From the NCBI GenBank assembly GCA_033220425.1, contig CM065653.1, positions 3,968,001-4,032,000 of the forward strand: a DNA stretch of 64,000 bases, written 5' to 3'. This document shows, in pieces, positions 13,941 to 53,681 of this stretch. Numbering within the stretch: the first letter of the stretch is position 1; each line of letters opens with the position of its first letter. The notes under the pieces are model-generated. The model saw only the letters and a program-made list of their open reading frames with translations. It did no database searches and was not told the origin of the DNA. The stretch is from Lepraria neglecta (lineage: Eukaryota > Ascomycota > Lecanoromycetes > Lecanorales > Stereocaulaceae). The position numbers and the translations under genes were made by a program.

Positions 13941-15696
13941 TCACTTCCGCACCTTAATGCGAATTCCCTTGCTGTCCGCCCTCGGATACGGCACGAAGCG
14001 ATCGCTGGCCATGTCCGTATCACTGCGGTCCGTCTCCCACAGCTCCCACCAGCCGTCCTCGCCATGGTCCTCCTCGCTGCCGAAGCGCCGCCAAATCTCC
14101 GAGAGCAGCAGGTAGATCTCCGTGTACGCCAGCTGCATGCCCAGACACTGCCGGGAGCCCTGCGAGAACGTCATCAGGTAGCGCTTCAGCTGCGGGTTCT
14201 CGATGAAGCGCTCAGGTCGAAACGAAAGGGGATCGGCGAAGACGTCAGGGTTCAGGTGGACGAGGGGCGCGGCCATGCCAACGGGAGTCTGGATTATTGG
14301 TTAGAAGGTGTGCATGGGAGTGAGAACGGAGGGGGAGACGCACGCCGGGAGGGATGTGCCACTTTTTCCTGCCGTCGTTGAAAGTCATGACTTCGTTGGG
14401 GCTGATGCGCGTCTGCCGCTGGCTGGTACCGATGGCTAGACGGAGACCCTCCGTGATGACGGCGCTGAGGTAGGGCAACTGTTCGATATCTTTGATGACC
14501 AAAGGCGCGGAGACGTCTGGGAGAGCCGCTGTGAGCTCGGCTCTCAGCTTTGCGAGGACCCGTGGGGTGGAAAGAAGGTGGACGGTCATGATCTGGGCCA
14601 CGGGTCAGCTTTCATGAGATGAAGGGGTTCCTGCTCTCGCACGACGCACACTTAGAATCCAAGATGTGGTTTCGGTGCCTGCTATTGAGAAGTTCTGAGC
14701 CTCTTGGAGAAGGCGGAGCGGTTTCTTGTCCTCCTCAGATAATTTGCTGTCAAAGATCTCGTCGAATACCGTTTTGCTGTCTTTCCCTTCATGATGAGAC
14801 TTGGCGACTCTGTCAATGTTGCTTAACAGTTGCTATAATGAGTTTAGCTTCGTTGCCTGCGTGGTCAAGCCGTCAAGATTACCAATTTAAACTTGATAAA
14901 GGTCTCGAAGCCGGGATTGATCTTCAACACTAGCCACCTAGGCAGCCTGGCGAAGAGCGGCATAAACCACTTGAACTGAACCGCAAAAGGCCCGAGATCA
15001 TGAAAGCCGTCAATCTGCAACCTTTTCAGTCATCGAGCTTCACACGCATTGTCTGGTACCCACCATTTCAAAAAAGACCTTGTTAAACTGCGGTGCTTGC
15101 ACCCAATTCAAACTGAAGCCATATGCATACTCGGAAATCACATCATTCGTAAAAGCCCCAAACATGGGAAGCAGACTGATCTCCCTCCCATCATCCTGGA
15201 ACTCCTTCAGCCGAACCAAGAGCTTATTAAAGTTCGCCCTCATGATCGGCTCCAGCCGCCTCACCGATTCTTTCGAGAACATCTTTGACATGGCCGCCCG
15301 CCGCGTTCGATGCAAATCGTGATCCGCGGTGGCACCCGCGGCCTGCGAGAAGCCAAAAATCTGGATCATGCGCGGGTACTTGTCCCTGCGACGTCCGCCA
15401 GCGGGCATCAGCTCGGGAAGGAAAGAAGGGTCGTTAATATGTAGTTCGTCGGGAGAGATGCGCACGATGTGGCCGTACTTGGCGTGCATGTCGCGGATGC
15501 GAAAGAGGTATTGGCCGCCACGGAAGTAGTCATGGTAGAATTCACACCAGAAGGTCACTGCTGCAAGGCGCGGGCCGGGAAATTTGGCAAGTGGATGCAG
15601 AGTTAGGCGGTAGGTAGAGAGGAGGACGACATAGAGGGCGAAAGAGATAGCTATGGTGGTCAATGGCCAGGTAATGACAAGATCGAGGACATGCAT
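13941..15696 (-). CDS. Cytochrome P450 monooxygenase, five exons, intact
   Basis: Microsomal heme-thiolate oxygenase, probably tailoring the polyketide. Exons: 15064-15696, 14883-15014, 14650-14832, 14344-14592 and 13941-14288. The four introns (49, 50, 57 and 55 bp) have GT...AG ends, all phase 0, and join into 514 residues with no stop. Visible: N-terminal membrane anchor (about residues 7-27), proline hinge FPGPRL (39-44), I-helix AGTETT (306-311), ExxR as EGLR (364-367), FRPERF (422-427), and heme loop FSQGSRQCLG with the cysteine ligand near residue 447. The C-terminal half resembles fungal secondary-metabolism P450s of the trichodiene-oxygenase type. The substrate is unknown. It is the only P450 here that is still open. 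Adjacent to a dead P450 and a dead PKS, it may be a surviving cluster gene. Confidence 0.88.
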
Positions 15697-18901: not shown

Positions 18902-19318
18902 AGATTCTGCAAACTCGACTTAGACCGACATCCACACCGGACGCACGTCTAAGATTCGACGGGCTCCCGAAATCGGTGCAAATGACCTTGGCGTTAGATC
19001 AATGCCTCGGAAGACGCAGTGGAGTTAGAACAACTGGCGAACGATGATCCAAAGAAGACATGGCTTCTCGAGGCTCCATCAAAAGGCCAGTCTCGACCGA
19101 CTGGCAACACAACATCCTCAAAGATTCCGAGTTTCAACAACCCATTAACGCCGGCGATGTCAGTCAACCTCAATGGTCCCCCAATGGCCTCAGCAGTGTT
19201 CTGTCCTGCATCGCGCTGTTCCAAAAGTTTCTGTCATTAGCGTCACAGCTAGTTCGGCGCTATCAGCAGGCCGCAGCCAAATCAGGGTCTATATCCCATG
19301 TCAATTGCGGGCCGAGAA

Positions 19319-19708
19319 GTCAGCAGGATCAGCAACTCCGGGTTACTGTCGGCAACTGTAAGCCCCAAGCAGCCCCAAAAATTATCCCCCGAAGTTATAC
19401 GACCGCGCGCAATGATTGCGCCACTGCGACACCATAACTACACCCCCGGGTAAGCTACGGCTGTCATCCCTGCGAGAATTTGGGCCCAATCGCACGATTC
19501 TGGGGTCTGTTTTCAGCTGGTGTTGATGGTGCTCCGGGGGAGTCGCTGCCGTCGATGGCAACGATCATAGAAAATCAACCTTTTGCTTAGTCAGCAATCA
19601 CGTGATATACTGAATGCTACTGACCCTGCTGATGCTGTTAGCAAGCTGGAATTGTTGAATGCGCTGAAATCGACCTGTTAGCGGGCGCTATTTGCTGATC
19701 CCGCTGAC
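19319..19708. repeat. Inverted-repeat segment, MITE-like
   Basis: A 17-bp terminal inverted repeat, GTCAGCRGGATCAGCAA, matches at 16 of 17 positions at both ends of a 390-bp segment just upstream of the first readable SAT sequence. No clear target duplication is seen and no second copy was found in the window. It could be a small DNA transposon that separated the PKS from its start. Confidence 0.35.
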
Positions 19709-19786
19709 AGGCTAATCTTAGCCCTATCCGCGCGCCCAGCAAATCAGAAGTTCTCAGCAAGATTTGGGAAACGCCGATGTGGGGAG

Positions 19787-20766
19787 GATTATCTCACGCA
19801 ATTACACTTCTTCCTCCGTAGCAGCAAGTATCTCGAACCTTTTGTGCACAATATCCTCCACCTCAAAGACATCTGGATCATCCTCGCCAATGAGCGGCAG
19901 GACATTGCCGATATGGGCCAAGGTCTCCGATATATACACGGTCTATCCGAGTGGATCACAACAGGAAAATCATCCCAAATCACCAACTGCATGTCCGGAA
20001 TTATATCGCTTCCGCTACTGGCCGTGATTCAGACATGCCAGTATTTCCAGTATCTGGAGCTCCACGGGATATCTCACTCCCGGTGCGTAGCACAGCTCCG
20101 GGCAGGAGGCGGTATCCAGGGGTATTGCGGTGGCTTGCTACCAGCCATGGCAATTGCATGCTCGGAGAATGAATCCGACGCGAATCGCGCTCGCAATCGG
20201 GGCTTACGATGAACTTGGAGATGACGAATCGGTGCTGGGAGCAACGACAATTGTCGTTCGCACGAAACGAGTCGGCTAGGGAGATGAGCTGATCCAGAAG
20301 TTTCCAGGGGTGAGATTCTCCAAGGCGCGCTTCGCTTCGCTTCTTACCAAGCTCCCGTCACATCCCATCCCATAGCAGACATTCTAATACGCATGCGCAG
20401 TCATACATATCCGCCGTCACAGACCCAAAAACAATCAGCATCGTTGGCCCAGTGCCAGTTCTCCTCAAGCTACAATGTTACGCAAGGGAACACGGCCTGC
20501 TGGTGCAGGAAATGCACATCCGAGGCAATGTGCACAACCCCGAGAATGCCGAACTTGCCCGAGAACTGTGCCAGCTATGCGGCAAGATGAATATCCTTCG
20601 GCTTCCTCACGCCAGCAATCTGCAACCGCCCGTGAGGTCCAATAAGACGGGCAATCTGATTACAGAAGGATCACTTACCCACGAGGCAGTCAGTGTAATC
20701 CTCGCCTCACGGTGCGAATGGTATACCCTCCTTACAGAGCTGGCGAAGGACCTGGATTTGTCTGGG
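19787..20766 (+). other. SAT domain (starter-unit acyltransferase) of the PKS
   Basis: The readable SAT runs from about 19787. It includes a GGIQGYCGGLLPA segment near 20110-20150, whose G-x-C-x-G is the acyl-binding cysteine motif of SAT domains. It then shifts frame near 20175, meets TAG at 20277 (a likely former glutamine) and continues after an intron (20310-20400) as SYISAVTDPKTISIVGP. The first part of the domain is missing or unrecognised. Confidence 0.75.
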
Positions 20767-20937
20767 TGACGAACTCACACGTTTGCGGCGTTTGGGATTG
20801 GCGACTGTATTCCATTGTCCCCATTCCACAAATTCCAGCTCCAAATCACCAAGGTAGATGTGCAGTCCCTGATAGCGGAAACCACGCATAAACTCCGGGC
20901 AAATAGATTGGAAGATGGCTATTCTTATCCAAGAGAT

Positions 20938-22173
20938 GCTGTCGCCATCGTTGGCGCTTCTTGCCGCCTCCCTGGAGCTAATAGCATGGAAGAACTTTGG
21001 GATCTCATATCTAGCGGTACTTCACGACACACGGAAGTCCCAACGGACAGATTCGATCTTCATGGGAGCTTCCGCGCATCTCAGGACCGCAATATTTACC
21101 GACAAGAGAAAGTTTTACGGCAACTTCGTCGACCAAGTTGACAATTTCGACCACGCATTCTTTCGCACCAACCCTAAGGAGGCTTTAAACATGGATTCTC
21201 AGCAACGCGTACTCCTCGAACTTGCCTACCAAGCCATGGAGTCAAGCGGCTACCTAGGTTTGCATCAGCGCGAATGGGGGGATACTGTGGGATGTTTTAT
21301 AGGCGCTAGTTTCGCCGAATATCTAGATAACACAAATGCTCATCCACCAACAGCATACACCTCGACAGAGACAATCCGAGCATTTCTATGCGGCAATTAA
21401 GCTATTATTTTGGATGGAGCGGCCCTTCTGAGGTGTTGGATACGGCTTGCTCATCGTCTCTCGTTGCCATCAATCGAGCCTGTAAGCCTGTTCAAACAGG
21501 CGAATGTACCATGGCTCTTACCGGGGGCGTCAATATCATGACCGGGATAAGCAACTTCCTAGATCTGGCCAAAGCTGGCTTTTTAAGTCCTACAGGACAA
21601 TGCAAACCGTTTGATCAAGCTGCAGATGGTTACTGTCGCTCTGAAGGCGGGGCATTAGTCGTTTTGAAGCTTCTCAGCCAAGCGGTAGCGGATGGCGATC
21701 AGATTCTGGGTGTCATCCCCGGAATAGCGACCAACCAGGGTGGGCTCTCTTCTTCCATCACCATTCCGCACTCTCCAGCGCAAAAGAAGCTGTATCAAAC
21801 CGTTTTGCGCCAAGCCGGTATGAAGCCAGATCAGGTGTCCTACGTCGAAGCTCATGGGACGGGCACTCAAGCCGGAGATCCACTCGAAATGGCTAGTATC
21901 CGCGAAGTGTTTGGGGGGAAGGACAGAACGGATGTGCTGAACGTTGGCTCTCTCAAAGGCAACATTGGCCATACAGAGACCGCAGCAGGTGCAGCCAGTC
22001 TGCTTAAGGTTCTCGCCATGATCAACAACGCTGGTATCCCACCCCAGGCCAGCCATAGTTCTCTCAATCCCAAGATTCCTGCATTAGGAGTGGACAAGTT
22101 GAGCATTGCCTCAGAAGTCGCTCGCTGGGAGGCACCATTACTAGCAGCTTGTGTGAATAGTTACGGGGCAGCA
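20938..22173 (+). other. Ketosynthase domain of the PKS
   Basis: Starts at VAIVGASCRLPG. The catalytic triad is present: cysteine in DTACSSSL (codon 21448-21450), histidine in EAHGTGT (21853-21855) and histidine in GNIGHTE (21970-21972). Frameshifts near 21105 and 21391 separate the N-terminal part. The TGA at 22174 follows NSYGAA. Confidence 0.9.
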
Positions 22174-22499
22174 TGAAGCAATTGTGCCATGATCTGTTGC
22201 GAAGGTCCCCCACGAAAGACGGAACTCTCCAAGCAGATTACAATGGTTGAAGGCGATTCAACATACCCGATCATCATAAGTGCAACGTCACAAGAAGGTC
22301 TGTACGCAAATGCCGAAAGTCTGGGTCGGTACCTCCAAAAGACAACGCCAAAGCCCAACCTGGGCGACTTAGCTTTCACTCTTAGCAAGCGACGCAAGCT
22401 TCATCGTCAAATCTTCGTCACCTCCACATCCGACATCAACAGTCTGGCAGAAAACCTGAGAATTGAAGTTCAAACCTCTTTCGAGGTGCCACAAACGCC

Positions 22500-23440
22500 C
22501 AAACGAGTTGTTCTAGCTTTTGGAGGGCAGACCAAGAAAATGGTGGACATGGAGAAAAGCCTGTACGAGTCTCACCCACGTATAAAGAACTACATCGATG
22601 AATGCGACAAGATCGTCATAAAACGTGGGTTTCTCTCACTTCTGCCATTAATATTCCAGTCAGAACCGCTGAATGAGGTGGTTACGCTGCAATGCGGCAC
22701 CTTCGCCATGCAATACGCGTGCGCTAAATGCTGGATTGATGCCGGTCTCCATGTAGAGGCAATAATCGGCCACAGCTTTGGCGAGCTGACGGCCATGGTA
22801 GTCTCAGGTGTGCTCTCGCTACAGGATGGCCTCAAACTTATTGCTTCCAGGGCTTGGTTGATGGCGACCAAATGGGGCCCCGAAAGAGGAACCATGCTTG
22901 TTGTTCATGGCAGCCGCAACACTGTGCGAAATGTAGTCGCCAAAGTCAACGCGAGTTCAGCGGAGCCAGAAATCGAGATCGCATGCTACAATGCTCCGTC
23001 AAGTCAGGTCGTAGTAGGCGGCTCACTCGCGATCGATCGAACTGGAAGCCTGTTGAACAGCGACCCAGCCTTCTCCGGCACACGATTTCCACTCAAATTT
23101 GACAAAAGGCATTCTCGACGATCTCGATCAGGTTTCAGCATCACTAACCTACTCTGAGCCGGAAACATTCCTAGAAACCTGTACTGCCGAGCCGAGCTCT
23201 CAAATATCAGCGAAAAGGCCTTCTCAACATGCGCGAGAACCTGTATACTTCTCTGACGCTATCCAGCGAATCGAGAAACGTCTCGGTTCCTGTGTCTGGC
23301 TAGAGGCCGGTATGGACTCGCCGATCATCCCAATGATCAAACGAGCCCTGGCCAAACCAGAGGATCATTGTCTTCAGGCTATAAAGATGTTAGACTCTAA
23401 GGGCTCTACGAGAGTGATGTCCAACGTGACAACAAATCTC
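22500..23440 (+). other. Malonyl acyltransferase domain of the PKS
   Basis: Starts at LAFGGQTKK. The nucleophile serine is intact in GHSFGE (codon 22774-22776). Near 23090-23110 the frame changes just where the GFHS-type motif with the second catalytic residue should be. The motif is not found there, so an out-of-frame deletion of roughly 35-40 bp is inferred. TAG at 23441 probably replaces a tryptophan. Confidence 0.8.
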
Positions 23441-23639
23441 TAGTGTGAAGGGATTCAAGTATCGTACTGGAATTTCCTACCGCCAAGAATGAATACCTAC
23501 AAGCAGAGCTGGCTCCCACCGTATCAGTTCCGATCGACAGGACATTGGCTCAAGAACATCGATCGGGTCATTGAGGCACAGAAACACGTTATAGCCGAGA
23601 AGACAGCAATTGTAGAAATGCCTCAAGAACCAATAGCGC

Positions 23640-24560
23640 CACTGAGGTTAGTGAATGTTGGGAAAGTAGCGGGTAAGAACGACAACTCCAAAGAATTCGA
23701 CATCTGCCTGGGAACACAGCGTTTTACCAAGATCGTGTCTGGCCACGCGGTTCGGCAAAGACCACTGTGCCCGGCGTCAATGTGCATGGAGTACGCGGCA
23801 ATGGGGTTACAATTACTCCAAGGACATATAGAAGCCGGCACTCTTGGCTTTGCCGACCTGAGGCAGCTCTAGGCGTTGACCTTGCTCGAGAAGCTTCCTT
23901 GGCACTTGAAAAACCCAACGACTCGCACGCATGGAGCTTCGTGATCAAAAGCTCTTCTTAAACCGATCTAAAGTCGAGGTCCACATCGCATGCGAAAGGC
24001 AGAATTGTGCTGACCGTGCAGCCCGAATTTAGCACATACGAAAGACTCATCGCTTCCAGGATTAATGAGCTGCAGAGTAAGCCAAATACGGAGAAGCTGA
24101 AGTCTAACCGGACTTACGGATTGTCTTCCCAAGTCGTCCACTATGCCGATTTCCTCCAAGGAATTTCTACTATCACGATGGATAATGCTGAGGCAATAGC
24201 CAACATTGACCTGAGAGAAGATGCCCAGTTCGGTTTAGACGAGAGCACAGTAACTCAATACTGTGATACGATAGCTATAGATACATTTATTCAAGTTGTG
24301 GGCCTCCTGATCAACAGCAGCGCTCTGGTGACCAGCGAAGACGTCTTTGTCGCCACAGGAGTTGACCTTGTCTCGATGTCTCAAGTCTGCGACTTCCACA
24401 GCCGCAAGTCGTGGACCGTCTACACAAAGTACACCAGCACGGGTGAGGGCCAAGCAGCGGGCGACATCTTCATCATGACACGCGAAGGGGTTCTTGCCAT
24501 GATAATAACCGGGGCACAATTCACCAAGCTCTTAATATCGAAGCTTGAGAGATTCCTCGA
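23640..24560 (+). other. Product-template domain of the PKS
   Basis: Controls ring closure. The catalytic histidine is visible in SGHAVRQRPLCPAS (codon 23744-23746). The catalytic aspartate is probably in the AIDTFIQVVGLL segment (24280-24282). A frameshift near 23870 and TAA at 23959 break the domain between them. Confidence 0.8.
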
Positions 24561-24761
24561 CTGTGCTAATGCAAAGCCGTCTCACGCGGCTGCTATGAAA
24601 AACGAACGTTGCCCCCAAGTACCGTTTACGTCTTCGGAGACGACATCTAGAGCAACTTCTGTCGATGGAACAGAGACTCCACCCGGCATGGACAACAATA
24701 GCCAGGCGACGTCAATCGAAAGCGACGACAGGCTCGCCACACGGGAGGCAGTCGACGACGA

Positions 24762-24978
24762 CGCCGAGATGAGCTTGCGAAAGATCATCGCTACCTATAC
24801 ATATCTTTCGCCAGCAGAGGTAGCGCGCGATGCTAGTATCGGCGACATGGGTGTAGACTCTCTAGCTGCCGTTGAACTCGCGGAGGAGCTTCAGACACAG
24901 TTTGGCAAGGAGATCGTTGCCGAAGATCTTCTTATGAGTAGTTATGGAGCTCTTTCAAATATTCTTGTTCCGTTCTCC
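24762..24978 (+). other. Acyl carrier protein 1 of the PKS
   Basis: The phosphopantetheine site GVDSLAAVEL has its serine at 24859-24861. It lies in an unbroken frame that starts before 24007. Confidence 0.9.
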
Positions 24979-25109
24979 TCGACCAAGAAAGCGACGTTGC
25001 CTACACCCACGAATCAAGGGCTTCAGGCTGCAATACCTATTCCACCATCCTCACTCACGTCCTCTTTCAGCGTCAACGCTAGCTCACAAAACCTGGAAGG
25101 CAACCAAAC

Positions 25110-25315
25110 CGCTTTGAAGTTACTTTCCGATACCTCAGGAGCCCCCATCGCCTCCATCAAGGATAGTGCCACCCTTCAAGAGCTCGGTATTGATTCACTT
25201 TCGGCCGTTGAGCTCATAGGTGACCTCGAGGACGCGTTCAAAATTGATATCGAGGACGACAGGTTTACTTTAGACTCCACCGTGAAGGAGATCTTGGACT
25301 TCCTAGGAGTAGGAA
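25110..25315 (+). other. Acyl carrier protein 2 of the PKS
   Basis: The second phosphopantetheine site GIDSLSAVEL has its serine at 25195-25197. It is separated from ACP1 by a serine/threonine/proline-rich linker. Tandem ACPs are common in NR-PKSs. Confidence 0.9.
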
Positions 25316-25527
25316 GTGCATCTCAGGACACAAAATCTTCGCCGGCAGTCGCTACAAAACCAATGACGCAAGCAAGTTTAGATATATCAAGTAGACTTGA
25401 GAAGACTATTCCTGCCGAGAAGGAGCAAGGGAACGAGATCGAGCTCGGAAGCCCAATGGAAGCCTTGATCCATTGCGAGGCGTTTTTCGGCCAAGCGGCC
25501 GCGAAGCGTGGTTTTCTGAATTACTAG

Positions 25528-26570
25528 ACACAAGTAGCTCCAAAGCGAGAGGAGCTACTGCTAGCATACATATGCGAGGCTTTCAAAGCTCTCGGTTTAG
25601 ATGTCGGTCGGATAGCACAAGGTCAGCAAGTTCCCTCGATTCCCTATCAGCCTAAATACAAAAAGATGATGAAGCGAGTGTTCGAGGTCCTAGAGAAGCA
25701 TGATATTTTGATTAGGCAGGAATCAGATCATATCCGTGGCAGTCGGAAGAGCCCATCCACACTGTCTCATGAACTCCATGAGCAATTCGTCGCGCAGTAT
25801 CCCGCGTACGCTGGCGAAGCTCGACTCATGGCCTTGACAGGCCCAAAGCTAGCCGACTGTTTATCTGGCAAGACTGATCCCATATCCCTCATGTTCCGCG
25901 GGGCCGCAGCCCAAAAAGTTATGGAAGACTACTACTGTGCCTCGCCGATGCTGTCCACTTTAACGGAACAACTAGTGACCTTTATCCAAGCTGTTGTGAC
26001 CTCCAGCAGCACCATGTCCAGCGACACCCCAATACGAATCCTTGAAGTAGGTGCCGGTTTTGGCGGTACAACCACCGGTCTCGCCGAGGTTCTACAGGCG
26101 AGCGGTGTCCCCATCTCCTACAAATTCACCGACATCTCGCCCTCGCTCGTGAAAGGCGCTAAGACCAAACTCGCAAAGTATCCTTGGATAGAGTTCCAGG
26201 CCTTGAATTTGGAAAACGACATGCCGGCCCAGCTCAAGGGTAGATATGATATTGTCATAGGGACCAACTGCGTGCACGCCACGACGAACAAGACGAAAAC
26301 GATTACCAGGCTGAAAACCTTACTCAACGCGCAAGGCTTCATGGTGCTCTCAGCAGTCACGCAGCTGATCGACTGGTATGACATCGTCTTTGGGCTGCTG
26401 GATGGATGGTGGCTCGCTAATGATGGGTCAACATACCCTCTGCAGCCACTAGAGTCATGGGTTCGATCATTCGAAGAGGCCGGGTTCAGCAGGATATCAT
26501 ATTCGCAGGGCCCGAATCCAGAGTCCAGCACGCAGCGACTGCTAGTAGCATCTAATAACCCAAAGGTGAC
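25528..26570 (+). other. C-methyltransferase domain of the PKS
   Basis: An SAM-binding loop ILEVGAGFGGTTTGL lies near 26035-26080, followed by ISYKFTDISPSLV and a NCVHAT segment typical of PKS methyltransferases. Open throughout after the TAG at 25525. It would add methyl groups to the growing chain. Confidence 0.9.
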
Positions 26571-26599
26571 TACACCTCTCCGAGCTGAAGAGAAACAGC

Positions 26600-27937
26600 C
26601 GAGCGTGCAGACGGTGGTGTACAAAGAGGTAGATGACACTTCCATTGAGGCAGACATCTACCTACCTGCCCAGGCTTCCGCAGAAGCCATGCCTGTCGGT
26701 ACACATTCGTCTCCCACCAGCTCAACATTGTCCCCTAATTTCCACTACCGCACTTGCTAATCTTAGTCTTCGTATTTAGCACTCATGATCCACGGCGGCG
26801 GGCACATGACGCTTTCCAGAAAAGCAATCCGACCCTTCCAGACCGCTTTCCTTCTCGTTCATAGCGTGCTACCTGTCAGTATCGACTACTGGCTCTGTCC
26901 AGAAATAAATCTGATCGACGGGCCTATTACGGATGTATGCGACGCGTATGCGTGAGTACAAAAGGGCTTACAAGATGTCATGAGAAGTCAAGGTATTTCG
27001 GTTGATGAGGAGAAGATAGTAGTCATAGGGTGGTCCACTGGTGGGCCTTTGGCCATGATGACGGCATGGACGAGTAGACAGGCAGGGTTGAAGCCTCCAG
27101 TGGCGATTCTGAGCTTCTATGGTCCCACTGACTTCATGTCTGGAGGTGAGTCTGCTGCCGCACCATTTCCATTTTGATGTACGCATTCTTTCTTTGCTTG
27201 GCCTCGTCGAGTAACGCCTTTCACCTTGATCTTCTTTATCCAATATAGCGTAAGCATGCTGACTCCTATCCTCTGCCATAAATAGATCTCGATGTCCGTC
27301 AGGCCGAAATGTATCCGGAACGGCAGATGTCAATGGACAAAATCATCTCCTCTCTGCCTACCAAACCAGTAAACCCCTCTTACTCCACACAAGCACCCCC
27401 CTTCCCACACTCCCAGAATAATTTCTCTCATACACCTATCAAACACACATCCACACGCTAACAACCCCTCGCTCCCTCACAGATAACATCTTACACGGCC
27501 ACGCCCACTGCCACTGACAGCAGCCACCTGGCTGGATCCGCCCTGGCGACCTGCGCTCTGAGCTGGTACTCTCCCTCTTCAAAGAAGGGCACGGCCTTCC
27601 CCTCCTGCTCAACAGCATCCACCCTCCCGTCGGTACGCCCTGGTCCACGCCGCCTTCCGCGCCCCTCATCGCCAGCATCTCGCCCCTCGCCCACCTTCGT
27701 CGTGGCACGTACACCACACCGACGTTCCTGATCCACGGCACGGAGGATGAGATTGTGCCGTTTCAGACGGCGGTTGCTTTTGCCGGGGTACTAAGGGAGA
27801 AAGGTGTCAGAGGCGGGCTGGCCGAGGTGAAGGGGAAGAGGCATATTCATGATTTGAAGCTGAGGGAGGGGGAGGTGGGGTGGGAAGAGGGGGTGGGGGT
27901 TGGGTATAGATTTTTGTTGGAGGAGTTGGAGCGTTGA
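26600..27937 (+). other. C-terminal thioesterase/esterase-type alpha/beta hydrolase domain of the PKS
   Basis: Oxyanion-type MIHGGGH, nucleophile GWSTGG (27028-27045), acid HGTEDE (about 27735-27752) and histidine HIHDL (about 27842-27855) are all visible. It spans three introns. Lesions: TGA at 26953, where tryptophan is expected after DAYA, and a frameshift near 27528. It would release the product. Confidence 0.85.
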
Positions 27938-31435: not shown

Positions 31436-32539
31436 CTAGCCATTAATCCACTTCATGCCAGCAGGGTGGTATCGATCACCCGTCACCTCGCACGTTGCAA
31501 GTATTTGATAGATCTCCGCCATTTCTTCCTCGTTCAGGTCCACATCTTTTGCTTTCCCATTCTCAATGACGCGGTCAACGGTCGTGGCTCCTGGAATTGG
31601 AATGATTGTAGGCATCCCCTTTCTCTTCGACAAATTCACGACCCAGGCAATGGCTAGCTGGGCTGAAGTACATTTCTTCTTCTGGGCCAGAGTCTCAATT
31701 CTTTTGACAAGCTTCATGTTGTTTTCGAAATTGGGTGGTTGAAAACGAGGTAGCATCCTTCGAAGGTCCTTTTCCGCGATGTCGTCGAAGGATTTGATTT
31801 GGCCGCTCAACAAACCACGACCAAGTGGGCAGTAGCTGTTGGTAGAGTATAAGCTATGACCAGTGTAGACACTCAGTGTACTCACGCGATGATTGGAATG
31901 TTCAACTCTGCGCACGCCTTGGCGATCCCGTTGGTTAAGGGGTCTGTACAAAAGAGGGAGATTTCAATTTCCACGGCCACAATTTTCGTAATCTTTGCCG
32001 CTGCCCGTATGGTATCCGCATTCACCTCGGACAGAGCGACGCCAGCAATCTTTCCCTGTTGCACCAGCTCTTCAAGCGTAGCTAGCGTAGTTTCAAGCGG
32101 AGTGTTTGGATCTCGACGTCCACATTCAAACATATCGATCTTCGCTGTGCCACCCAGCATCTCCACACACCGCTCCACACTCTGTCGCACAAAGTGCGGG
32201 CTCCCGTCGGGAATCAAGCCAGGTCTAAGAGCACCTTTGATATTCAGTACCACCTTATCGGCGTCCTCCGGATACTTGGTGAAGTACTTGTTCAACAGGG
32301 TAAGCGAATTGACATCGGTCGACCCATAGAATTCGCCGCCGTCCCAGAGGTTGCAGTCAGTAGATAGAGCTGCACGCATTGCAGCAAAACACTGCTCTTC
32401 TGTCGGGATAGCACCCGGCTTGGTCAGTGCTACAGAAGATGTTAGTGTCGTTGGACTAGCTATGATTGGTTCGACGCTGCTGACCCAACATGCCGTAGCC
32501 AATGCTGCCGACTTTGCGGCCAGATATTTCAGTTCGCAT
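31436..32539 (-). CDS. Aldo-keto reductase (pyridoxal-reductase-like), three exons, intact
   Basis: NADPH-dependent cytosolic reductase of aldehydes or ketones. Exons 32485-32539, 31886-32429 and 31436-31835; introns of 55 and 50 bp with GT...AG ends. The joined frame is 332 residues with no stop, the usual family length. The start MRTEISGRKVGSIGYG is chosen because it alone gives the N-terminal beta strand and splices in frame. Catalytic aspartate and tyrosine are in LWDGGEFYG (about residues 48 and 53), lysine in LNIKGAL (about 83). AYCPLGRGLLSG spans the second splice junction. GATTVDRVIEN near the C-terminus is typical of the coenzyme pocket. Nearest to fungal AKRs of the pyridoxal reductase / AKR8-13 type. 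Cluster tailoring or housekeeping roles are both possible. Confidence 0.88.
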
Positions 32540-33696: not shown

Positions 33697-35174
33697 TGTC
33701 ACGGTGTCGCCTAGAGTCAAGTCATAGGGGTGGAATAGACTAGGATATCGAATCTAAGGAGGAAAACTATGTAGAGCGAGCGAAGGATCTATATAGGCAG
33801 CAACCCCTGAGCTCGGCCCGAAGGTCCGATAGGGCTGACCAGGAGGCTGCGAGGTACGCCTGTAATATTACCCCCCTCTCTAACAAGGCATCGACCGCGA
33901 TACCTATAGCTATCCTTTGCCTCCAAAACCCTCCTATATCTTAGCCTGCGGCGGCGGCGATATCAAACGGATCGATTTGGCCATATGGTAGTAGCTGCCA
34001 GGGCCGAAAAGGCGCGCTGTAGATCAAGCGCGATATTAAGCAAAAGTGTAGCCGAATTTGAATCGATCGAGGCATTCGAAAACATGCCCTAAACTTGGTG
34101 GCGTTCCTGATGCTTAGCGCTCATCACGTGATCTTAACCCTGCCAGCTATATTGATATACACCCACATGCTCCACCGCATCTATCCTATATGTAGTCCTA
34201 CCAAGCTTCCTAGCTCTTACCCTAGCTTGGTGTTGCTATCACCTTGCCAAGTCATCCTAGTCCAGCGTTGCCATCGCCTTGTAGGGGTCGTGATCTTATA
34301 GGTTGGATAGTAGGTAAAAGGGCCATCGAGCGGCAGGCGTAAGAAGTGTATGATAATGAAATGAAATATGCAGTTGGCTTATAGCGATATAAGCGCTGCA
34401 GGGTCGTTAGGGGTGCGATATAAGTATAGCGTCATCGTATAGTCAATGCTATTATAGCAGGCTTACTAGGTGGTACCATTGCAGCAGGCTCACTATTTAG
34501 CTTGTCAGTTAGATTATTGTAGTTATAGACGGGGCAGAGCTTAAACGAGGTGCAATTAACGAATTGTCCTGATTGTTGTACTTTGCCGTTCAAGCAGGCT
34601 CACTATTACTGGTGCCGTTCAAGCAGGCTCACTGTTACTAGTGCCATTCAAGTAGGCTCACTGTTACTGGTGCCATTCAAGCAGGCTCACTCCAGTAGGT
34701 ACTCACTGCCGTCTCTAGTGATTCCATTCTGGTCTCTGGTCGGTGCCATTGTAGCAGGCTCACTCCAGTAGGTGCTCACTGCCGTCTCTAGCGATTCCAT
34801 TCTGGTCTCTGGTCGGTGCCATTGTAGCAGGCTCACTGTTAGGGGTAGGTAGCTGCTTTGTTTTGACTCGCAGTTGCAACCAGTACAAGTGGTCGGCCAT
34901 TCTTTTAACTCACGTGCCTTTATAAGTACTACGGTTGTTTAAAGTCGCCCGCGCGACTGTACCTTATTTAACATCGCCAGTTAACGATAGAGATTCGATA
35001 TAATGTCACGGTGTCGCCTAGAGTCAAGTCAAAGGGGTAGAATAGACTAGGATATCGAATCTAAGGAGGAAAACTATGTAGAGCGAGCGAAGGATCTATA
35101 TAGGCAGTAACCCCTGAGCTCGGCCCGAAGGTCCGATAGGGCTGACCAGGAGGCTACGAGGTACGCCTGTAACA
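33697..35174 (-). mobile_element. TRIM-like miniature LTR element, copy C (least mutated)
   Basis: 1478 bp with 171-bp repeats (33697-33867 and 35004-35174). Ends TGTCACGG...GTAACA. Target duplication GATCG/AATCG (33692-33696 and 35175-35179). It keeps many CA/TG dinucleotides that are TA in copies A and B, so it is the youngest or least RIP-exposed copy. Its interior has about four 29-bp minisatellite units (34590-34700) and no gag-pol. It lies inside the 3' LTR of Gypsy-1b. Confidence 0.85.
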
Positions 35175-44624: not shown

Positions 44625-47527
44625 TGTCACGGCCTGATCTAGTAGTAGTAGAACGGTGGCTATCAATGAGGTGATATAGATAAAATACTAATGCTAAGGA
44701 AAGAAGGCCATATGGGCGCGCGAGGAATCTATATAGGCATGCGGCGGCAAGCCTCTGAGCTAGGCCCAATGAGGTATGCGTATACATGGCCAGCCCGTGA
44801 CATTACCCCCCTTCTACTAGGCATCGTCCCGATGCCTGCAGCCAATTAGGATTTCGCAGGCCTGGCGCTAGCGGAGGCTCGTGAAAGATTTCAGCCAATT
44901 AAGTGTATAGGTAGTGGCTGATTCCAGGAATTGCGAAATGGGCATGTTGAATACTGAACTTGCGACAGCAGAAAACGATGGCGTTCAGATTCCAAGCCAG
45001 CTGGTCGTTAGGGGCAACTATGGCACATAGCGACTGAAGGGCGACCTCAGGTATCAAAAGGTACATGCCATTAGGGTGGAATGGCGGCCGGTAGTTAGAA
45101 GAAGGCAATGATATATAGTATTGCATGAAAAGGCATAAAATACATAAGCATTCAAAATCGGTGAAAGCAATTATTAAATGGCGGCGTTCATAAGTCTTGG
45201 CGCCAGTGCTTTATTGAATCGAATATGAGCAAGCTGCTTCGGGGCAGGAATGCTAGATGTAGGGCATCGGTGGCCTAATGCATGGCGGTGGTAGTATCTA
45301 GGATCTGATGCCGGGCGGCAAAGCGGTGGTGGCATCTGGGATCTGATGCCTGGCGGTGAGGCGATGGTGGCATCTAGGGTCTGATGCATAGCGGTGCGGT
45401 TGCATATGGCGGAACTTGGGGCGGAGCTCGCCTGGTATAGTCAACTAGGTACTGGCGTAGGATAGCTCATCAAACGAGATCTCTGTAATAGCGGTATAGA
45501 TTTGTATGGCGTCAGGCGGAGAGGTGTTCCAGGAAATGAAGACAATGGATTTTTTGGTTTTAGTGTTTTAGGTGTTTTGGTGCTTCCATCCCCCTTTTTA
45601 GCAAGGTAGCGTCCGCGATACCTGCTAGATATAGACATCTTTTCTGATCCTGTATATGTATAGCTATCTCTTTTGGCTTGTTGGATAGCAGAGTCAGCGG
45701 AGGCAGTCGTCTTTATTGAGGTAGTAGAAGCCGCGGAAGCGGTAGCGGAATTCATAGATTTGTCGGTAGTGGTATATCGTCCGAATAGTCGAGATAAATC
45801 ACTTATCCTAAGATATGGAGGCGTATACTTGTTGGTAGCGTTTAGAGGTGCATATCTTATATAAAGGTCTTTGACGGTAAGGTAATCCTTAGTGGCTTTA
45901 TAAGCTGGCGGTGGAGGCGAAATCATTCGATATCTCGGAGGTGGCGTAGCCGGTGGAGTCGCTGGCGTAGATGGAGTTCGGGTGGATGAGGCGTGCCTAT
46001 ACACCAGGCCTTGGCATTTCTCGCGTAGATGTTAATATAGCTGATTTTTTGATGAAAACACCTTTTCGCATTGCCTGCAAGATAGCTTGTTGCATGTATT
46101 TTCCTGCGTATGTCGGATGAGGCGCGCGGTTGAGGAGAACGAGGTATTGCAGAGCTTGCAATAGTGGTATTCGGGTGCTTGGCTTGATTCTATTGGTTGC
46201 GGAGTTGTTTGCGGAGCTGTTTGCGGAGCTGCTTGCGGGAATTGAGCTTTTATGGCTTGCATGCATTTGGATAGATCCTGATGACTTCTCGATTGGTTGA
46301 ACCAGGTAAGGGCTCCGCCGCGGAGGCACTTGGGAAGAAGCGCTAGGATATTAGCTTCTAGGAATTGTGATCGGGATTGCTCGATGCGGTTACAAAAGGC
46401 GTTTATGTTATGAAAAAGGTATAGATCAGGAAAGTCATGTTGTAGCGAAAGATCTAGAAATCCGATATCTTTTGGTACTGGCTTTGGCGATAGCTTTAGC
46501 GATGGCTTTGGCGGGGATATACGCGAAGATAACTTTAGTGGTCTCTTTTGGAATATTGGGCAGCTTTCTAAGTAGATTAGATACTTAATCTCAGGATCAT
46601 CTTCTGGTTCCTAATCGTATAAGCGGGTATTGTATATCCGGCAGACAACGTTATCTGTATGGCTGGCTGTAGGCATATGGCTGAATCTAGCTTCTGCAAG
46701 ATCTTCTGGGGTAGGAGAGGTATGCGGCCATGAGGCGAATGAGGCAAGGTATTCAGTATATGTCGACATCTTAATGGATTCGGTAGTCAGGAGTAGCGGA
46801 AGGATATCTGAATCGACGGCTCAGTAAAGAGATCGATCTAGCGGTAAGGCATTGGGTGATAGGTTCGGTAGGTAGGTGGTTGGATGGTTGGTGAAGCTGC
46901 TAAGGGTGTAGTAGCTAAGGGCGGAGGCGGAGCGGAGGCGGAATAGAGGCGGAGCTGGTAGTAAGTCGATGGCTCAGTAAAGAGGTCAACTTCCGGAGGA
47001 AGGTAGAAGTAGTAATTAAGCTGCTAGGGATTTAGTAGCTGAGGGCGGAGCTGATAAGATATTATAGGTAGGCGTTGGCAAGAGGTGAGCGCTGGTAGTA
47101 GGAGGTAAGGATCAAATTCGGAAGGCGGCGGTTGGTGCTATAAAGCTATTGAGCTTCCGGATTACTCGGTGGCAGGTTGAGGTATTAAGGTATTAAGGGG
47201 CCTAGGGGTTGGTAGGTGCCCTTGGGGTGGTCCTGGCGGACCTGGTGGTGTTATTAGGTATTAACACCGTGGTTGCTGCCGGCCAAATAGTAGCTGGTAG
47301 GATGCATATGAAGATACACCCCGGTGGCTTGTTTGGAGCATTAGTATTATATCACGGCCTGATCTAGTGGTAGTAGAACGGTGGCTATCAATGAGGTGAT
47401 ATAGATAAAATACTAATGCTAAGGAAAGAAGGCTATATGGGCGCGCGAGGAATCTATATAGGCATGCGGCGGCAAGCCTCTGAGCTAGGCCCAATGAGGT
47501 ATGCGTATACATGGCCAGCCCGTGATA
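44625..47527 (-). mobile_element. Gag-only (C2H2) non-autonomous LTR element
   Basis: 2903 bp. 178-bp LTRs (44625-44802 and 47350-47527) start TGTCACGG/TATCACGG and end CCGTGACA/CCGTGATA. Target duplication TATCT on both sides (44620-44624 and 47528-47532). A polypurine tract beside the left LTR puts the coding strand on minus. Its only gene is a gag-like C2H2 ORF (45441-46769). No reverse transcriptase or integrase was found. It is largely free of RIP although its host Gypsy-1c is saturated, so it arrived late. It would need enzymes from an autonomous relative. Confidence 0.8.
45441..46769 (-). pseudogene. Gag-like protein with C2H2 zinc fingers, two nonsense codons
   Basis: One reading frame of 443 codons from AAG-ATG at 46769 to the stop at 45441, interrupted by TAG at 46611-46613 (codon 53) and TAA at 46032-46034 (codon 246). 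Both are explicable as glutamine codons hit by C-to-T. Features in order: an N-terminal part ending YNTRLYD, a helical segment with CLRGGALTWFNQS (about residues 145-160), two zinc-finger-like units, CKLCNTSFSSTARLIRHTQ and CRQCEKVFSSKNQLY (about residues 205-245), then a Pro/Thr-rich tail with YLTVKDLYIRYAPL. Such C2H2 proteins recur in fungal repeats and are probably nucleic-acid-binding Gag-type proteins; this role is inferred. Base composition is normal, unlike the flanking AT-rich sequence. Confidence 0.65.
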
Positions 47528-52870: not shown

Positions 52871-52873
52871 TAT

Positions 52874-53681
52874 TCGCACATGGCGATATGGCACCGGATG
52901 GCTCAATTCGCACATGGCGATATGGCGATGGATTGCCTATTCGCACATGGCGATATGGCGGTAGATTGCCTATTCGTACATGGCGATATGGCGCTGGATT
53001 GCCTATTCTGCACATGGCGATATGGCGCTGGATTGCCTATTCTGCACATGGCGATATGGCGATGGATTGCCTGTTCGCACATGGAGATATGGCACCGGAT
53101 GGCTCAATTCGCACATGGCGATATGGCGATGTATTGCCTATTCGCATATGGCGATATGGCGCTGGATTACCTATTCTGCATATGGCGATATGGCGCTGGA
53201 TTGCCTGTTCGCACATGGAGATATGGCACCGGATTGCTCTATTCGCACATGGCGATATGGCGGTAGACTGCCTATTCGCACATGGAGATATGGCATCGGA
53301 TTACCCATTCGCACTGTTGGCTATATGGCACCGGATTGCCTATTCGCATATGGCGATATGGCGGTATGTTGCCTATTCGCACTGTTGGCGATATGGCACC
53401 GGATTGCCTATTCGCACATGGCGATATGGCGTCGGATAGCCTATTCGCACATGGCAATATAGCGGCGGATTGCCTGTTCGGCATATGCCGATATGGTACC
53501 GGATGGCTCATTCGCACATGGCGATATGGCACTGGATTGCCTATTCGCACTGTTGGCTATATGGCACCGGATTGCCTATTCGCACATGGCGATATGGCGG
53601 CAGGTTGGCTATTCGCACATGGAGATATGGCACTGGATTGCTCATTCGCATATGGCGATATGGCGGTATGTTGCCTATTCG
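52874..53681. repeat. 33-bp minisatellite, about 24 units
   Basis: The unit is close to CGCACATGGCGATATGGC followed by GCTGGATTGCCTATT. Counting units by hand gives 24 with small variations (GCACTGTTGGC replaces the start in three or four). Because 33 is divisible by 3 and the unit lacks stops, several frames on both strands stay open for 160-183 codons. These are artefacts, not genes. Confidence 0.9.

Follow-up and report, generated by a model that had tools for sequence, protein, structure and literature searches.

Introduction

The genes closest by description to the one presented here belong to the PKS1 and PKS23 families of non-reducing polyketide synthases (NR-PKSs) of lichens, for which passages of Kim et al. 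(2021; PMC8262933) describe four introns at conserved positions and list seven NR-PKSs of that paper's species as likely pseudogenes. How such genes can be lost is illustrated by pksAC, the ascochitine synthase gene, which according to the relevant passages of PMC6763771 has been disabled by nonsense single-nucleotide polymorphisms (SNPs) in Ascochyta sister taxa. Here we present a broken NR-PKS gene from Lepraria neglecta (Stereocaulaceae), found in a window of 64,000 nucleotides (C8:3968001-4032000; contig C8 has 4,488,439 bases), which we read as a likely pseudogene. On balance we lean towards a history in which its decay was likely begun by the insertion of a miniature inverted-repeat transposable element (MITE) and was continued by ordinary mutation, and not by repeat-induced point mutation (RIP).

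With the group IX synthases of the PKS1/PKS23 kind (atr1, atranorin) the window gene shares, as far as the passages of PMC8262933 go, that it is a lichen NR-PKS bearing a C-methyltransferase domain (CMeT) and four introns, and that it is clustered with cytochrome P450s and a regulator, which is of GAL4 type in group IX. It has the NR-PKS domains and the C-methyltransferase by which group IX is recognised. It differs in being broken, and its intron positions are matched only to a paralogue on contig C6; membership of the PKS1/PKS23 families, likened by description only, is offered as a lead. The closest parallel that we found to its fate would be the ascochitine case, in which nonsense changes have likewise disabled a fungal PKS in certain lineages and relatives retain the gene. 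Transcripts were seen there, whereas the window gene is known from sequence alone; and where the pksAC passages tell of nonsense SNPs, the window adds a transposon, frameshifts and a second dead gene. No account of this pseudogene turned up by title or abstract start among open-licence papers, a scope outside which the L. neglecta genome paper lies. The event is of a known kind, with an unusually well resolved anatomy and within a partly decayed cluster.

Results

The synthase gene and its lesions

The gene was delimited by Pfam matches to its pieces, by mapping to a reference protein, by its N-terminus and by its homologues:

19157..27937, + strand, including an inserted element: broken NR-PKS gene, with start codon at 19157 and last stop at 27935-27937

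A preliminary description of this DNA, made from its letters without database searches, had given the gene as 19787..27937 and so missed the 5' end, where a repeat splits the first exon; it also passed over that inserted transposon, a second broken gene and the intact genes nearby. The domain order that it read, SAT-KS-AT-PT-ACP-ACP-CMeT-TE, is borne out by Pfam, which finds on the open pieces SAT, KS, AT, a dehydratase-like PT, two ACPs, HTH_51 with a methyltransferase, and a hydrolase end. The nearest solved structure to the CMeT piece is the CMeT of citrinin synthase, a likeness at the domain level only. The enzyme is predicted to have made a lichen-acid precursor; the parts of two floras looked through held nothing on L. 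neglecta chemistry from which a product might be inferred.

Lesions were mapped by aligning the window piecewise to an uninterrupted protein of Xylographa pallens, P0005 (2620 aa), of which 2543 residues are covered, with 88% identity at covered sites. Two other uninterrupted proteins, P0003 (2101 aa) and P0014 of Letharia lupina (2513 aa), are 91% and 79% identical to the window PKS at covered sites. The homologues used for comparison are 41 proteins, P0003-P0045 minus two members shorter than 2000 aa, taken from the best 120 of 571 matches. In a tree of the CMeT domain (28 rows) the window gene groups among P0003, P0004 and Xylographa, a group whose branching order the tree does not resolve.

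Measured against P0005, the gene has seven in-frame stops:

20277..20279, + strand: stop 1, in SAT; glutamine in 6/6 homologues with a residue there
20767..20769, + strand: stop 2; arginine in 40/41 homologues
22174..22176, + strand: stop 3, at the end of KS; glycine in 41/41 homologues
23441..23443, + strand: stop 4; tryptophan in 41/41 homologues
23959..23961, + strand: stop 5, in PT; lysine or arginine in 35/41 homologues
25525..25527, + strand: stop 6, before CMeT; tryptophan in 41/41 homologues
26953..26955, + strand: stop 7, in TE; tryptophan in 4/4 homologues with a residue there

The same mapping yields six frameshifting indels, whose net lengths relative to P0005, worked out by hand from the piece ends, are, in order, -26, +1, -1, -26, -7 and -1 nt:

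20171..20186, + strand: frameshifting indel 1, in SAT
21091..21112, + strand: frameshifting indel 2, in KS
21395..21408, + strand: frameshifting indel 3, in KS
23086..23098, + strand: frameshifting indel 4, in AT
23861..23871, + strand: frameshifting indel 5, in PT
27519..27529, + strand: frameshifting indel 6, in TE

The preliminary description had counted seven nonsense codons and about six frameshifts and had proposed alignment to an intact homologue as a check; that alignment confirms the lesions and puts the counts at exactly seven and six. Its placing of stops at three expected tryptophans and one expected glutamine agrees with the homologues. One of the 26-nt deletions lies immediately 5' of the FHS residues of the AT domain, a motif that we take to hold the catalytic histidine. 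Loss of that histidine through the deletion was considered and dropped, as FHS is still present.

Four further interruptions are GT-AG introns and not lesions, and skipping them (borders read by eye) restores continuous orthologue sequence:

20310..20400, + strand: intron 1; P0005 mapping; in the same place in the C6 paralogue
26699..26779, + strand: intron 2; P0005 mapping
27146..27285, + strand: intron 3; P0005 mapping and alignment with the C6 paralogue
27369..27482, + strand: intron 4; P0005 mapping and alignment with the C6 paralogue

The C6 paralogue has gaps or frame breaks at the places of these introns. Introns as a full account of the disruption were rejected: they cover four frame changes but neither the other six nor the seven stops, and the six frame-changing junctions span 11-22 nt, which is too short for introns.

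A transposon in the first exon

The first exon is interrupted 52 bases past the start codon. The first 21 residues of the homologue P0007 match 19157-19216, and PKS sequence resumes at 19781; between them a search of the fungus's own genome (here and below, an assembly of 42.0 Mb in 11 contigs) and an alignment of sibling copies delimit the following element:

19209..19779, no strand assigned: MITE-like insertion of 571 bp with TG/TG flanks

The genome holds the window copy and at least 39 others at 76-88% identity (40 of 119 candidates scored). Twenty-five of those 39 were aligned, with lengths of 536-625 bp, and 22 of the 25 have, like the window copy (TG), a perfect 2-bp target duplication, the exceptions being L020, L021 and L044. 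Terminal ends such as CATCGCGCTTTCCCAAA / TTTGGGAAAGCGCGATG are found in most siblings and are imperfect in the window copy, whose longest open run is 75 aa. The family is thus short, multi-copy and without coding capacity, with terminal inverted repeats and a target-site duplication, as expected of a MITE. Taken together, seven stops, six frameshifts and one insertion set the gene apart from its uninterrupted orthologues, as a pseudogene would be.

Constraint and age

At 904 near-invariant columns the window PKS carries 20 private missense changes and 4 stops, while the 41 homologues have on average 4.8 private changes at such columns (maximum 18; P0003 has 2). Constraint has been lost by this measure, and the rate over the whole protein is not raised: 42 changes are found only in the window gene and 49 only in P0003 (1559 sites), and with P0004 the counts are 51 and 68 (1642 sites). 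The unraised rate argues that the gene was constrained during most of its branch and that its decay is fairly recent. To this extent the picture drawn in the preliminary description, of a once-constrained gene decaying rather recently by point changes and indels, stands; its RIP-like component does not, as discussed below.

Two clocks, calculated by hand with their intervals and uncalibrated to years, date the decay. Seven stops in 7629 nt, at about 0.034 nonsense per change, correspond to about 2.7% neutral change (about 1.1-5.6%), and the 15 private changes at 421 sites of the MITE copy to 3.6% (about 2.0-5.9%). The two ranges, roughly 1-6% per site, overlap, and the insertion may accordingly have been the first lesion.

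Neighbouring genes and the rest of the window

Four genes of the cluster lie around the synthase:

13944..15696, - strand: P450#1, open, compared with Letharia columbiana P0242
16752..18387, - strand: P450#2, broken, compared with Xylographa opegraphella P0124
28240..30042, - strand: regulator-like gene, a 600-codon open frame with a Zn2Cys6 match below the Pfam cut-off
31436..32539, - strand: aldo-keto reductase, open after introns

P450#2 is transcribed divergently from the PKS, across a stretch of 769 bp, and is itself broken by 2 in-frame stops and 4 frame changes confined to stretches of 1-19 nt (relative to P0124); its remaining three gaps are intron-like, all starting with GT and two seen ending in AG. 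P450#1, by comparison, covers 513 of the 514 residues of P0242, 464 of them identical, with no stop and four GT-AG gaps, and has no private change at 179 near-invariant columns (its nearest relative has 1, and nine comparison proteins have 1-26). The regulator-like protein, compared with its own genome only, resembles a C6 protein, and the one frame change in the reductase is an intron, GTGAGT...CAG. These three open genes show no lesion, against an expectation of 8.8 from the pooled lesion rate (P 1.5e-4) or 7.2 from the PKS rate (P 7.7e-4). Consecutive locus numbers suggest that two Xylographa species have the PKS beside P450#2, and that Lecanora helva has PKS, P450#2 and P450#1 together.

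Elsewhere in the window, tRNA and Rfam scans of its whole length gave no matches, nor did Pfam on the + strand at 12-19 kb. Related tandem arrays at 1831-2139 and 34584-34837, with 29-bp and 71-73-bp units, flank the gene island and perhaps form one repeat family. A 33-bp unit is repeated in tandem about 24 times at 52871-53681, a stretch free of RIP marks, and a second such stretch, 45001-47000, has a strong GC skew of 0.31-0.34, two open frames arranged head-to-tail on the - strand and a weak C2H2 zinc-finger match.

A paralogous cluster on contig C6

A second cluster lies at about 3,432,900-3,455,000 on C6 (L045-L047). Homologues of the PKS, both P450s, the regulator and the aldo-keto reductase are shared by the two loci, as are matching intron gaps in the PKS; the C6 cluster differs in having an extra O-methyltransferase-like frame and a PKS without lesions. 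That PKS, which served as a same-assembly control for lesion mapping, has an open frame of 2,102 codons, is 63% identical to the window PKS, and aligns over P0005 residues 6-2618 with all 5 of its stop letters inside intron-like gaps. In the CMeT tree the C6 copy is placed outside the clade of the window gene, within a set that is well supported, and from these separate positions the two are likely old paralogues. Several other ketosynthase matches in the L. neglecta genome have in-frame stops, which may mark introns or more broken PKS genes.

Discussion

In the history that we favour, the element would have landed 52 bases past the start of the PKS, near the 769-bp intergenic stretch between the divergent genes, after which the PKS would yield no full protein; P450#2 would then lose its substrate, and both genes would drift. 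The lesions would leave no working enzyme, and the C6 cluster or another pathway may have made the loss bearable. With the synthase and the adjacent P450 both broken, the pathway is likely to be without its core enzyme.

Several points weigh against this history. The lesions are known from one assembled sequence. An uninterrupted homologue, P0040, has 18 private changes at near-invariant columns, close to the window's 20, and the missense changes at these columns suggest, again by hand calculation, only about 1% neutral change, below the other two clocks. The MITE age presumes a star-like subfamily and draws on only four copies. Finally, lesions are denser in P450#2 (6 in 1479 bases) than in the PKS (13 in 7860), so P450#2 could have died first.

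This last point leads to the foremost alternative, in which the gene is equally dead but the pathway was relaxed first, P450#2 having broken, for example, or another cluster having taken over, and the MITE came later. The greater lesion density of P450#2, the presence of the paralogous C6 cluster, and the overlapping age intervals, which leave the order of events unset, are all in keeping with it. However, a later insertion should look younger, and the private divergence of the MITE, 3.6%, is not below the coding estimates of 2.7% and about 1%. We regard this order of events as a possible one, held tentatively.

In our judgement it is very improbable that the stops are due to RIP, whether mild or spilling over from the repeats nearby. 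The locus does lie beside RIP-marked DNA, as had been said: 11/12 one-kb windows at 1-12 kb and 22/29 from 35 kb on are RIP-positive. The idea also draws on the earlier suggestion that the stops fit C:G-to-T:A changes, with which five of the seven are indeed compatible; ordinary transition bias also fits them. The MITE family, too, is CpA-biased: in 18/25 siblings, CpA sites have changed relative to the consensus at three or more times the rate of other cytosines. Within 12-35 kb, however, 0/23 windows are RIP-positive, with three edge windows at a slightly positive index. For the PKS itself the evidence comes from composition, nonsense context, missense spectrum and a duplicate search with two segments. 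Its composite RIP index, -0.62, is negative, as in two PKS paralogues of the same genome (-0.77 and -0.85). CpA context accounts for 3/7 of the nonsense changes, within the 27-56% expected from the gene's own codons under a neutral model with five mutation settings. At columns that do not vary among the 41 homologues there are twenty private missense changes: 2 of CpA type, 1 CpG and 3 other C-to-T changes, along with 7 T-to-C, 6 transversions and 1 that needs two changes. The CpA bias for which the preliminary description proposed a test is not seen in them, and their spectrum fits ordinary mutation. No match elsewhere in the genome exceeds 68% and 71% for segments of 1677 and 1629 bases, respectively. 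The window MITE copy has a CpA rate 2.2 times that of other cytosines, a figure confounded by its subfamily, and its private changes fall on 3/53 CpA and 6/169 other cytosines. Moreover, RIP is not known to produce indels. The marks of RIP-mutated sequence, namely duplicated DNA, CpA-biased C-to-T change and a positive composite index, do not describe this gene, as regards duplication for the two segments searched, and we reject both RIP as the cause of its stops and the mild RIP-like mutation first proposed.

RIP is linked to sexual reproduction. L. neglecta is reportedly called leprose and asexual in the title of its genome paper (Pfeffer et al. 2023). The CpA bias of the MITE siblings therefore raises the possibility of cryptic or past sex in this fungus.

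Errors of assembly or consensus, which would draw on the single assembled sequence and on three of the six PKS indels being single-base by net length, are hardly credible as the source of the lesions, since the C6 PKS of the same assembly shows none across P0005 residues 6-2618, P450#1, regulator and reductase show none within 15 kb, and consensus errors do not typically take the form of seven stop substitutions, a pair of 26-nt deletions and a transposon flanked by a target duplication. That the locus still yields a shorter working protein, as the database model OEA41_010847 across it implies, can be set aside as scarcely probable at all. This L. neglecta protein (P0002, 1122 aa; 99% identity over 98% of the part searched) lacks SAT, KS and AT in its Pfam list and maps to 23489-27934 as four exact blocks. 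The gaps between the blocks measure 227, 30 and 832 nt; as every gap includes one split codon, the introns implied are about 3 nt shorter, and one of about 27 nt is implausibly short. The gaps take out the stops at 23959, 25525 and 26953 together with true TE exons.

Judged by what its gaps remove, the lichen PKS protein deposited as OEA41_010847 is a gene model drawn around lesions. The locus further indicates that RIP-rich surroundings need not imply RIP-made pseudogenes. Less expected, and in our view unlikely, is that P450#1 and the regulator have been selectively kept and now serve the C6 or another cluster after the C8 synthase and P450#2 died; if so, a half-dead cluster would still be supplying a distant, living one with enzymes and control. 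The acids made vary among lichen species and chemotypes, and the lesion-level causes of such differences are seldom set out. Here a single genome has a transposon in the synthase as the likely cause, two broken and three open genes, and an uninterrupted paralogous cluster, so that hypotheses on the loss of chemistry become testable.

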